NCBI GenBank assembly: GCA_016183815.1
Contig: JACPDW010000034.1
Location: 1 to 48,816, forward strand
DNA from: Flavobacteriia bacterium
GTDB lineage: Bacteria > Bacteroidota > Bacteroidia > Flavobacteriales_D > Crocinitomicaceae
DNA length: 48,816 nt
Direction: 5' to 3'
A program made the position numbers and the translations under genes. A model generated the notes under the pieces. That model worked only from the letters and a program-made list of their open reading frames with translations, was not told the origin of the DNA and ran no database searches. Below, in pieces: positions 19,788 to 38,836 of this stretch; the first letter of the stretch is position 1; each line of letters opens with the position of its first letter.

Positions 19788-19935
19788 ATTTTAATAAAAC
19801 ATCAAATAGTTATTTTTGAACAATCATTTGGGCTATTCAAAACTAAAAAAAATTTATTGAATAAATCTAAAAAGAAAAAAATTGTAAATTTTACCTTTAG
19901 TAACTCAAGTTATATATTTTTTCATCTACATTGTT

Positions 19936-19943
19936 TAACTTTG
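19936..19943 (+). promoter_or_regulatory. -7 box TAACTTTG of pruA
   Basis: TAACTTTGG ends 14 nt before the ATG at 19958. It overlaps an in-frame upstream TTG at 19931, which argues against using that TTG as the start. Confidence 0.55.
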
Positions 19944-19957
19944 GCAAAAATTTCGTC

Positions 19958-21589
19958 ATGTCAAACTATATTTTAAACGTACCCATTGCGGTAAATGAAC
20001 CAGTAAAATCTTATGCCAAAGGTTCTAAAGAAAGAGAATCTTTATTAAAGAAATACAATGAATTACTTCATCAAAATCCTATTGATATTCCGATGTATAT
20101 TGGTTCAGAAAAAATATTTACTAGCAACAAAAAACAAATAAAACCACCTCATAATCATCAAAAAGTAATTGCTACTTATAATTATGGTGAAGCTAGTCAC
20201 GTTGAAAAAGCAATTAAATCAGCATTAGAAGCCAAAAAAGATTGGGAAAATTTACCATGGGAACAAAGAGCTTCTATTTTTTTAAAAGCTGCGGATTTAT
20301 TAGCAGGTCCATACAGAGATAAAATGAATGCAGCCACGATGTTAGCTCAATCTAAAAATGTTTTTCAAGCTGAAATCGATGCTGCCTGCGAAATGATTGA
20401 CTTTTTTCGATTTAATGTTCAATTCATGACTCAAATCTATAAAGATCAACCAGAATCTTTGCCTGGAATTTGGAATAGATTAGAATACAGACCTTTAGAA
20501 GGATTTATTTTCGCTTTAACTCCATTTAATTTCACTTCAATAGCGGCCAATTTATGTGCTGCTCCTGCTATGATGGGGAATGTAATTGTTTGGAAACCTG
20601 CTGATTCTCAAATATATTCAGCTCAAGTAATTATGGAATTATTTAAAGAAGCTGGTTTACCTGATGGTGTTATTAATATGGTTACCATCGACGGACCAAC
20701 AGCAGGTGAAATTATTTTTAAACATAAAGATTTTGCTGGTTTACATTTTACAGGGTCAACAGCTGTTTTTAAATCCTTATGGAAAAATATCGCTTTAAAT
20801 ATTGATTCATATAGAAGTTATCCTCGTATAGTTGGTGAAACTGGAGGAAAAGATTTCATAATGGTGCATCCATCTGCAGATGTTTTTGAAGTTGCAACTT
20901 CAATGTCTCGTGGAGCATTTGAATTTCAAGGTCAAAAATGTTCAGCTGCCTCTCGTGCTTATGTTCCAAAAAGCAAATGGGACGAGATAAAAAATATTTT
21001 GGTTCAACAAGTATCCTCTTTTAAAATTGGAGACCCACAAAATACCTCAAACTTTATAAATGCGGTGATTGACGAGAAAGCTTTTGATAAAATCGCCTCT
21101 TTTATTGATTATATCAAATCTTCTACTGATGCAAAAATCATTGTTGGTGGGAATTACGATAAATCTAAAGGGTATTTTATAGAACCTACTGTTGTTTTGA
21201 CTGAAAATCCTTCATTTAGAACCCTATGCGAAGAAATTTTTGGACCTGTTTTAACCATTTACTTATACGAAGACACTGATTTTGAAAAAACTTTAGATTT
21301 GGTGGACAATACTTCAGACTATGCTTTAACAGGTGCAATAATGTCGAAAGACAGATATGCGATTCAAGTTGCTTTAGACAAACTTCGTCATTCAGCTGGA
21401 AATTTTTACATCAATGACAAACCAACTGGAGCTGTTGTCGGTCAACAACCATTTGGAGGTGCAAGAGGTTCTGGAACAAACGACAAAGCTGGGGCTTCTA
21501 TGAATCTGTTGAGATGGGTTTCTGCAAGAACAATCAAAGAAACTTTTGTAAGTCCTAAAGAGTATAAATATCCTTTTTTGGAAGAGTAA
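19958..21589 (+). CDS. pruA: L-glutamate gamma-semialdehyde (P5C) dehydrogenase
   Basis: This NAD-dependent aldehyde dehydrogenase oxidises glutamate semialdehyde to glutamate in proline degradation. The product of 543 aa matches the stand-alone P5CDH length. Motifs include ALTPFNFTSIAANLCAAP (cofactor fold), GLHFTGSTAVFK, VGETGGKDF with the general-base Glu, and FQGQKCSAASRAYV with the nucleophilic Cys. The C-terminal FGGARGSGTNDKAG and a LRWVSARTIKE segment are typical of the family. There is no fused proline dehydrogenase domain, so PutA activity is supplied elsewhere. I chose ATG 19958 because a promoter box overlaps the alternative TTG. Confidence 0.95.
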   Translation: MSNYILNVPIAVNEPVKSYAKGSKERESLLKKYNELLHQNPIDIPMYIGSEKIFTSNKKQIKPPHNHQKVIATYNYGEASHVEKAIKSALEAKKDWENLPWEQRASIFLKAADLLAGPYRDKMNAATMLAQSKNVFQAEIDAACEMIDFFRFNVQFMTQIYKDQPESLPGIWNRLEYRPLEGFIFALTPFNFTSIAANLCAAPAMMGNVIVWKPADSQIYSAQVIMELFKEAGLPDGVINMVTIDGPTAGEIIFKHKDFAGLHFTGSTAVFKSLWKNIALNIDSYRSYPRIVGETGGKDFIMVHPSADVFEVATSMSRGAFEFQGQKCSAASRAYVPKSKWDEIKNILVQQVSSFKIGDPQNTSNFINAVIDEKAFDKIASFIDYIKSSTDAKIIVGGNYDKSKGYFIEPTVVLTENPSFRTLCEEIFGPVLTIYLYEDTDFEKTLDLVDNTSDYALTGAIMSKDRYAIQVALDKLRHSAGNFYINDKPTGAVVGQQPFGGARGSGTNDKAGASMNLLRWVSARTIKETFVSPKEYKYPFLEE

Positions 21590-21657
21590 TTAAACATAAT
21601 TGTTCTTCATAATTATGAAGTAAATTATTTTTTTAAACATATTGTATTTTTCCATAA

Positions 21658-21792
21658 GACAAGGCCGTTACAAAAGTCAATAATCGAGGCTTTTCAAAAA
21701 TTTGAATCCGCAATCCCGATATTTGCTTCGGGATGAGGAATTTAAATTTTTGGATTAACGATGAGAATTGGGTTTTGAAACGGTCTTAAGAC
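21658..21792. repeat. ~130-bp imperfect palindrome in a convergent gap
   Basis: The left arm (about 21658-21719) and the right arm (about 21728-21790) are imperfect inverted copies. Shared blocks in order are GAC, CGTT, CAAAA, CAAT, CG, CAAAAATTT, AAT and ATCCCGA, meeting at an 8-nt loop. The tip ATCCCGA/TCGGGAT is perfect. The right edge contains a perfect ten-base palindrome GTCTTAAGAC (21783-21792). It lies between convergent pruA and a lipoprotein gene, so it may act as a two-way terminator. Its size and form suggest an interspersed REP/MITE-like unit. Confidence 0.65.
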
Positions 21793-21797
21793 TCTAT

Positions 21798-22523
21798 TTA
21801 GCAACCCATTGGAACATCGATAATAATCAATTTGGAGATTTTTTCACCGCTGTCTTTTCTGTCACCAGAAATTCTTAGAAAATAACGACTAATATTTACT
21901 CCACTCGGATATTCATTTGGGTTTTTAATGTATTGAATAATTTTAGCCCAATCCTCACCACATTGTTCCAATACTTTTAGTTTTAGTTCTTCAATGGGAA
22001 TTTGTGGAAATTTTTCTTTCTCTTTTGACGAATATTTAGCACAAATAAATTGATTGTTGTTGTTTGTTTTTAAAAATTTCCAATTTGAATAAAAATGTAT
22101 CCAATCAATTAAATCGCAGTGAGGCCCTTCATTCATGATTGTAACGCTTGTTTCAAATCTTTGTTCTATTTTAATATTTTGTAAAAACTCACTAAAAATT
22201 GAAAGTTGTTTTGCTTCTATGGTTTCTCCAAGTTCAGCAAAAATTGTTACAGAATCTTTTTGGACATTTTTTGTATTATTTTCTTCATCATAAATAATAA
22301 AACCATGGAGAACAAGTGTAAATTCATTAAATAATAGAGTTGTTTTAGAACCATCTTCTTGATGCTTTATAGTTATAGTATCATTAAATGTCTCTTCTAA
22401 ATTTGAAGTTAGCATTTTTTCGATGTTCGTCTTTTGGTGGGATTTGTTTTTTTTTGGAAAAAAATTGCAACCAATTAAACTTAAAATTGAAAGTGAAATT
22501 AAAGCGATATTTATTGTTTTCAT
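21798..22523 (-). CDS. Lipoprotein of unknown function
   Basis: The 241-aa protein has a lipoprotein signal (ISLSILSLIGC, lipid Cys at about residue 19). The mature part is mixed alpha/beta with no family I recognise. Notable are several Cys residues, including near the end (VPMGC) and in PHCDLIDWIHFYSNWKF. Codon use is very AT-rich like the neighbouring gene at 22720. These two lie between conserved genes and may be lineage-specific additions. It is convergent with pruA across the palindrome. Confidence 0.6.
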   Translation of the reverse strand: MKTINIALISLSILSLIGCNFFPKKNKSHQKTNIEKMLTSNLEETFNDTITIKHQEDGSKTTLLFNEFTLVLHGFIIYDEENNTKNVQKDSVTIFAELGETIEAKQLSIFSEFLQNIKIEQRFETSVTIMNEGPHCDLIDWIHFYSNWKFLKTNNNNQFICAKYSSKEKEKFPQIPIEELKLKVLEQCGEDWAKIIQYIKNPNEYPSGVNISRYFLRISGDRKDSGEKISKLIIIDVPMGC

Positions 22524-38758: not shown

Positions 38759-38836
38759 CATTGATTAAGTTTTATCGAAGGACTGCCTTAATTCATAAAC
38801 TTTTTCATTTTAATAATAATTACTAAAAAATAAAAT
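38759..38836 (+). promoter_or_regulatory. rpsK-rpsD spacer with pairing potential
   Basis: ATTAAG near 38763 pairs with CTTAAT near 38787, and AAGTTTTAT near 38767 can alternatively pair with ATAAACTT near 38796. Two exclusive folds just upstream of rpsD are a pattern expected of autogenous control by uS4. No promoter box is seen. Inference only. Confidence 0.35.

Follow-up and report, generated by a model that had tools for sequence, protein, structure and literature searches.

The window, by which we mean the whole 48,816-nucleotide stretch of DNA that was analysed, carries an imperfect palindrome of 127 bp that sits between two convergent stop codons. The features of the locus are as follows.

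19931–21589, + strand: upstream gene, L-glutamate gamma-semialdehyde dehydrogenase (TIGR01236); its stop codon lies 71 bp left of the element
21656–21660, no strand: left target duplication AAGAC, read from the sequence
21661–21787, + strand (orientation as in models R1–R3): MITE, imperfect palindrome of 127 bp; borders from the alignment of 11 copies
21661–21675, + strand: left terminal inverted repeat AAGGCCGTTACAAAA, with 2 mismatches to the consensus AAGACCGTTGCAAAA
21687–21690, + strand: left conserved internal-loop motif AGGC (cross-phylum alignment: A 60/63, G 62/64, G 61/63, C 53/63)
21708–21738, + strand: tip hairpin CCGCAATCCCGA...TCGGGATGAGG, from the alignments; the tip of the host genome's own subfamily
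21757–21760, + strand: right conserved internal-loop motif AACG (cross-phylum alignment: A 51/63, A 58/62, C 62/64, G 53/64)
21773–21787, − strand: right terminal inverted repeat AAGACCGTTTCAAAA, read on the − strand, with 1 mismatch to the consensus AAGACCGTTGCAAAA
21788–21792, no strand: right target duplication AAGAC, read from the sequence
21798–22523, − strand: ORF of 241 aa that converges on the element; its stop codon lies 10 bp to the right of it

The 241-aa ORF had no Pfam or NCBIfam match at E 0.001. No ORF of at least 80 aa crosses the window copy, and a coding role of the element was rejected on this ground. A known RNA family was also rejected, as no Rfam match at the element reached its gathering score, the TD-1, BTnc231 and microRNA families remaining below the cut-off. 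A search of the whole 48.8-kb window with model R3 at E up to 10 returned a single match, which coincided exactly with the element (76.7 bits). Elsewhere in the window, positions 38769–38800 match the S4-Flavobacteria ribosomal protein leader (RF03141), with 37.4 bits against a gathering score of 35.2.

The mirrored arms and the tip stem described in the first-pass annotation form a real palindrome: the RNA fold of 21640–21810 reached −52.8 kcal/mol, against −31.5 ± 3.6 kcal/mol for 200 dinucleotide shuffles (z −5.9, 0/200 as good), and the DNA fold of the 127-bp element gave z −5.2, with none of 200 shuffles as good. The tip stem, TCCCGA...TCGGGA at 21714–21733, is unique in the window and absent from 100 shuffles. 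A different tip, TTAAC....GTTAA, is found in copy C31 and in other genera, where the alignments place the alternative CAGTTAAC....GTTAATGAGG. The extent required correction. The palindrome had been placed at 21658–21792, whereas the aligned copies and the duplication confine the element to 21661–21787, with AAGAC duplications at 21656–21660 and 21788–21792. The 10-bp palindrome noticed at one edge, GTCTTAAGAC (21783–21792), is present but composite; it is palindromic because GTCTT, the last 5 bp of the terminal repeat, and AAGAC, the target duplication, happen to be complementary.

Terminal repeats and a candidate helper

The host genome contains the element at 13 distinct places, of which 11 hold near-complete and 2 partial copies; the genome search gave 14 rows, one being a second, reverse-strand match of a copy already counted. 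Exact 5-bp duplications (e.g. GTATT, AATTC, GTTAT, ATAAT) flank 8 of the 11 copies, against at most 6 in 20,000 trials in which the flanks were shuffled among the copies. At the level of sequence, the copies, their terminal repeats and their duplications are thus demonstrated. The element is short (127 bp), multi-copy (11 near-full and 2 partial copies) and without a transposase, and it combines 15-bp terminal inverted repeats with target-site duplications in 8 of 11 copies, as a MITE should. The genome-wide copy search proposed in the first-pass annotation was therefore productive, the aligned copies supplying both borders and duplications. A single copy without conservation in relatives would have refuted the repeat, and this is not the case, given the 13 genomic places and the relatives in other species. 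Two of the four other genomes of the genus (G001 and G002) contain no copy.

The consensus terminal repeat occurs exactly in 17 of 240 genomes of the family Crocinitomicaceae. In three of these 17 (G166, G175 and the sister species G004), the repeats bound an element of 1,307–1,308 bp with one transposase gene. Both ends are exact in G166; one end is exact in G175 and in G004, the other carrying 1 and 2 mismatches, respectively. Duplications of 5 bp flank the 1,307-bp copies in G175 (ATACC) and G004 (AATAA), and the left flank of the G166 copy lies beyond the contig edge. The transposase matches NCBIfam NF033581 (IS5) with 273 bits in G166 and 264 bits in G004 (cut-off 140); the Pfam domains of the G166 protein include DUF772 and DDE_Tnp_1, and the G175 protein is 97% identical to it. 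G124 holds a fourth element, whose gene is interrupted by stops and whose flanks do not match. The host genome keeps a 107-bp remnant of an IS end, 78% identical to the G004 IS end. No intact helper was found in it, the best transposase match being 32% identical and lacking these ends. An autonomous element with the same ends, as expected for a MITE, is therefore provided by the IS5-type elements of G175, G004 and G166, with only the remnant in the host genome. A candidate for the cognate transposase that the first-pass annotation had proposed to look for was accordingly located in a sister species, in an IS5-type element with nearly the same ends, but not as an intact helper at home.

By eye, the IS and the MITE have only the terminal ~15 bp in common, and blastn gave one longer, weak match (32 nt, 84%, E 8e-4) between the partial copy C30 and the G175 IS. 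With little or no sequence in common inside the terminal 15 bp, the MITE is no mere internal-deletion derivative of the IS; as far as sequence can tell, it can be seen as a non-autonomous partner of the IS5-type element. We infer that an IS5 transposase moves the element. By IS5-family (DDE) chemistry, with the transposase acting in trans, the element would have entered the gap between the two convergent genes, although the empty site of the window copy was not compared. The inferred transposase would recognise the 15-bp terminal repeat and duplicate 5 bp of the target; the present genome may then retain only a remnant of a helper end, with no close helper left.

A conserved core within and beyond the family

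Model R1, a covariance model built from 20 copies, was run on the 240 family genomes and found a hairpin of ~121 nt in 37 of them, in 8 of 24 genera. The copy numbers are lower bounds, because at most 14 candidates were scored per genome. When 72 matches were compared side by side, many had nothing resembling the consensus repeat at their ends. The outer 12–18 bp vary from copy to copy yet are largely self-complementary, and AGGC, the tip and AACG are unchanged. Alignment A7 has 67 rows, 64 of them distinct. Of its 41 pairs, 34 show changes on both sides, and the covariation score is 0.476, where shuffles give 0.171 and slid partners no more than 0.139. A7 comprises 67 of 81 matches, those below E 1.55e-10, and true copies just above this line are missing; both A7 and the cross-phylum alignment A8 were fitted to the model, which biases them in its favour. 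RNAalifold on the independent MAFFT alignment A6 of 70 copies gave 15 pairs, in the inner stem and tip only (12 with changes on both sides), because the variable outer stems fail to align. Judged from these alignments, the core rather than the ends is the conserved part of the element, which was unexpected.

Some hairpins depart from this pattern in other ways. In L267 (the dnaK 3' region of G033), L061 and L180 (G031) and L179 (G029), a short palindrome like TTCCGATAGCTATCGGAA or TTCCGATAACTATCGGAA lies within the tip or the left arm, and it looks as though a second small repeat had been inserted there. L231 (G003) and L144 (G004) occupy the same stop codon 3' of malate dehydrogenase and have the same layout with almost no common sequence, which would mean that compensated evolution was very fast or that one site received insertions repeatedly.

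The tip CCGSAGTTWACnnnnGTWAATGAGGA was found in at least 119 stretches among the genomes of 84,980 species, against ~0.2 expected at equal base frequencies. Among the matches listed, the records are labelled Flavobacteriales, Bacteroidales, Amoebophilus, Cryomorpha, three Pseudomonas species, Kangiella, Cellvibrionaceae, Woeseiaceae, Gallionella and others; the taxon labels of MAG records may be wrong. The Flavobacteriales model R2 matched 73 of the 80 tip loci listed at E 0.01 and gave no match at this threshold in the other seven (L320, L322, L330, L337, L350, L358, L362). A8 consists of 64 hand-picked matches from 58 of these 80 loci; it excludes 8 loci with matches on both strands, the 7 without an R2 match at E 0.01, and seven that had matches (L307, L317, L327, L333, L339, L352, L360). 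In A8, 37 of 41 pairs change on both sides, and the covariation is 0.694, against 0.165 for shuffles and at most 0.144 for slides. AGGC and AACG are near-invariant across phyla, though they lie outside the tip used for selection. The stems thus demonstrably covary, and the two internal loops, AGGC/AACG and GGAG/TGA, stay fixed.

Model R3 was trained without enterobacterial rows; its tip is conserved by construction, and its E-values are rough. In scans with 9 candidates scored per genome, R3 had a match at E 0.001 in 126 of 369 gammaproteobacterial genomes and in 48 of 395 Bacteroidota genomes, the latter mostly of one family, f29. Its copies number at least 50 in Pseudomonas alcaliphila, 43 in P. 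chengduensis, 40 in an Amoebophilus MAG, 29 in an Alistipes MAG and 11 in the host genome. A Pseudomonas copy had no DNA similarity match among plasmid, E. coli and phage records. The features that we propose for the superfamily, namely the GGAG/TGA tip loop, the AGGC/AACG loop and nested covarying stems, are all present in the window element (R3, 76.7 bits).

Two loci have unusual surroundings. In L301 (a Flavobacteriales MAG), the core lies between 10-bp direct repeats GTAAAATAGT that seemingly include a gene's stop codon; as these repeats exceed the 5 bp seen in the IS5-type copies, they suggest another transposase. In L321 (Bacteroidales MAG RGIG4631), the inverted repeat extends into the flanks (ACAGGAAGAG...CTCTTCCTGT, then TTT), as if the element had been inserted into a terminator loop, unlike the orthologs examined.

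The + strand RNA was the more stable one in all 11 rows of the host genome, in 63 of 64 and 57 of 62 rows (3 opposite) of the other sets and in all 6 ERIC rows, with an average advantage of 8–13 kcal/mol. Shuffled rows (one simple shuffle per row, up to 40 rows per set) still favour the + strand by 2–5 kcal/mol, so that G-rich composition accounts for part of the difference. The GU-versus-AC counts, 85 against 16 and 74 against 18, are regarded as biased because the alignments were fitted to the model. Folding of both strands is the fairer test, though the composition effect remains. The constancy of the loops points to the reading of one folded strand, be it RNA or single-stranded DNA, and we infer selection on that strand; a function has not been shown. 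The proposal that the element folds as a single strand, already made in the first-pass annotation, is supported by the covariation and the consistent strand difference.

Position beside genes, relation to ERIC and rival explanations

In a set of 54 other Flavobacteriales copies, a − strand gene ends −15 to +10 nt from the right end of the element in 31 of 34 cases, against 4 of 23 for + strand genes at the left end (31 against 4, p 3.5e-6). The cross-phylum set of 55 copies gave 14 of 26 on the right and 4 of 22 on the left (14 against 4, p 0.03), and the 24 copies with IS5-type ends showed no such stop-codon precision (right 4/11, left 3/18). Non-IS5 copies such as L154, L160 and L162 meet stop codons with their right end, in a single orientation. 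The gene calls came from a crude ORF rule, and the sets were sorted by hand. The 54-copy set was separated by hand from clear AAGACC-type ends; several of its members have diverged AAGAC-like ends, a few are orthologous, and not all are independent. Copies overlapped by an ORF were omitted (1 of 24, 6 of 54 and 6 of 55), and the cross-phylum set represents 55 of the 64 A8 rows. Copies beside stop codons put the less stable strand into the transcript of the upstream gene, which is a poor fit to a simple functional 3'UTR hairpin. Selection may remove insertions that place the strongly folded strand in the upstream transcript, or else the element may be read from a transcript of its own strand.

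Orthologous sites were compared at six genes in up to 15 genomes each (60 stretches). An automatic presence flag missed L255 and wrongly marked L272, and presence was therefore counted by eye. The element was present in 3 of 15 sites at EttA, 1 of 12 at transketolase, 3 of 8 at HPPD, 1 of 10 at CoA-transferase, 4 of 9 at DnaK and 1 of 6 at malate dehydrogenase, where one strongly diverged hairpin was also seen. The empty sites at EttA, HPPD, CoA-transferase and DnaK were also without the outer arms. Seven copies (L152, L160, L162, L167, L163, L151 and L144) have a separate terminator-like hairpin with a T-run downstream of the element, and several orthologs without the element retain their own, all judged by eye.

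The tip and loops of the element match those of ERIC. Of 5426 E. coli genomes, 5373 contain the 44-nt ERIC centre, e.g. between pgk and fbaA. The E. coli records leave the repeat unlabelled, and the name ERIC for these loci is presumed, with the description of ERIC as a 127-bp element in the accessible part of PMC2229807 as its published basis.

R3 recognised 6 of 7 ERIC loci over their full length, at E 7e-10 to 4e-4: Pantoea (52.6 bits, 6.6e-10), Klebsiella (43.6 bits, 7.5e-8), Citrobacter (27.2 bits, 4e-4) and three E. coli sites (34.9, 31.0 and 29.5 bits), which count as about one test because they are near-identical. In Serratia, R3 matched the tip only (17.5 bits, E 0.068). The ERIC motifs AAGGC and CCAACGCA of Pantoea, Klebsiella and Citrobacter align on the AGGC and AACG of the model; in E. 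coli ERIC the right motif was not aligned with AACG. The best match of R2 to E. coli ERIC was the tip alone and was not significant (E 2.1). ERIC is thus recognised by a model trained without it; that ERIC and these elements descend from one ancestor is our inference. The window element fulfils the ERIC description of a ~127-bp imperfect palindrome in intergenic DNA. It does not have TA at its termini, as listed in Table 1 of PMC2229807 (a source available in part), ending instead in AAGGCC...GGTCTT flanked by a 5-bp duplication, and it shows no nucleotide similarity beyond the core motifs (R2, tip only, E 2.1). Because the terminal TA and the sequence-level tests failed, the element was not filed as ERIC proper.

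Terminal repeats, duplications and an IS would suffice for mobility, and other small palindromic MITEs are known from the accessible parts of PMC2229807 and PMC10969869. The element might therefore be an ordinary IS5-derived MITE, whose hairpin has no role of its own and whose likeness to ERIC reflects convergence of AT-rich palindromes. We consider this unlikely, as such a MITE would keep its ends and lose its middle; here the outer stems change completely, and the largely unpaired AGGC/AACG and GGAG/TGA stay. Convergence also does not predict that Pantoea ERIC aligns with R3 over its full length at E 7e-10. REP and REPIN repeats are tied to a Y1 transposase, and the long hairpin and two Y1_Tnp matches in the genome would suit a REP/REPIN mobilised by such a Y1 (HUH) enzyme. 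This reading is the hardest of all to credit, given the DDE-type terminal repeats with 5-bp duplications and the absence of any copy from both Y1 contigs (L009 = G000:C18, L010 = G000:C11). REPs are described, in the part of PMC3733652 at hand, as palindromes of 20–40 bp tagged GTAG or CGTC, and the element, at 127 bp and with a 5-bp duplication, does not qualify. The earlier label of a REP/MITE-like family consequently survives in its MITE half, on the strength of multiple copies, terminal inverted repeats, 5-bp duplications and an IS5-type element with near-identical ends, and has to be dropped in its REP half, the element being several times longer than REPs.

The place of the window copy between two convergent stop codons would agree with a bidirectional transcription terminator, which we nevertheless regard as very unlikely. 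An intrinsic terminator has a T-run directly after the stem; none follows the stem of the window element, whose right end is succeeded by AAGACTCTATTT. Moreover, the T-run hairpins of the seven relatives lie separately downstream, and several orthologs without the element keep theirs. It is scarcely credible that the core was inserted into the loops of pre-existing terminator hairpins, the outer stem being host DNA, even though the outer stems are unrelated between copies of one genome, copies abut stop codons and locus L321 does look so. We set this idea aside because the empty sites at four genes lack the outer arms.

We are therefore fairly confident in the explanation as a whole, namely that of a MITE moved in trans by an IS5-family transposase, with a folded core that is shared across phyla, ERIC included. 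The element is a MITE whose ends are of the IS5 type, and it belongs to a superfamily that crosses phyla and appears to include ERIC; it is not ERIC sensu stricto, not a REP and not a terminator. Its interior is predicted to be a core that folds as a single strand, in the order stem, loop AGGC/AACG, stem, loop GGAG/TGA and tip hairpin, and this core would be common to elements with entirely different outer arms in Bacteroidota and Proteobacteria, including ERIC. We only infer that a reader of one folded strand is what keeps these loops unchanged. The chances seem to us even for a broader proposal, in which ERIC is the enterobacterial branch of an ancient cross-phylum mobile family. Members of this family would have a folded single-strand core, with two internal loops of the kind bound by protein or RNA, and exchangeable terminal repeats, so that the same core could use one transposase in one host and another elsewhere; selection would act on the core and not on the ends, and its reader would exist in both Bacteroidota and Proteobacteria. 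If the superfamily holds, experiments can address where ERIC comes from, which helpers it has and what its fold means. Mobilisation could then be assayed with the IS5-type partner, mutations could be aimed at the residues of the fixed loops, and the spread across phyla implies a general reader of the loops.

Comparison with known systems

ERIC is a repeat widely used for strain typing (ERIC-PCR). Its hosts are given as Enterobacteriaceae and Vibrionaceae; its orientation is reported to matter, and in Yersinia it can expose an RNase E site where genes have their 3' end (PMC2229807; PMC10969869; both available in part). Like ERIC, also named IRU or RU-1, the element is a 127-bp imperfect palindrome that is intergenic and without a transposase. 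The tip GGAGYTTACnnnnGTAARTGA and the AGGC loop are common to both, and AACG occupies the same place in Pantoea, Klebsiella and Citrobacter. In contrast, ERIC ends in TA, whereas the element has an AAGACC... terminal repeat and a 5-bp duplication, its host belongs to the Bacteroidota, and the stem sequences are unrelated. The accessible part of PMC2229807 reports no helper IS for ERIC, whereas the element has a candidate helper. We found no report of ERIC-type elements in Bacteroidota in the open-access literature of one library, in so far as its texts were available.

Cardinium belongs to the Bacteroidota. Its MITECca01 is likewise a MITE with a parental IS but is about 240 bp long and associated with the IS982 family (PMC9769881, available in part). 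QMITE2 of Coxiella also lies mainly in 3' untranslated regions; it differs in its length of 150–190 bp, its direct repeats of 7–11 nt and the GTAG REP that it carries (PMC5896051, available in part). With the IS5 family (the NCBIfam NF033581 group) the element has in common nearly the same 15-bp terminal repeat and the 5-bp duplications (G004 and G175), but the interior of the IS shares little or nothing with the MITE beyond the terminal 15 bp. Thus, a MITE with an IS5-type partner is of a known kind; what would be new is a relative of ERIC in the Bacteroidota that has other ends and comes with a candidate helper.
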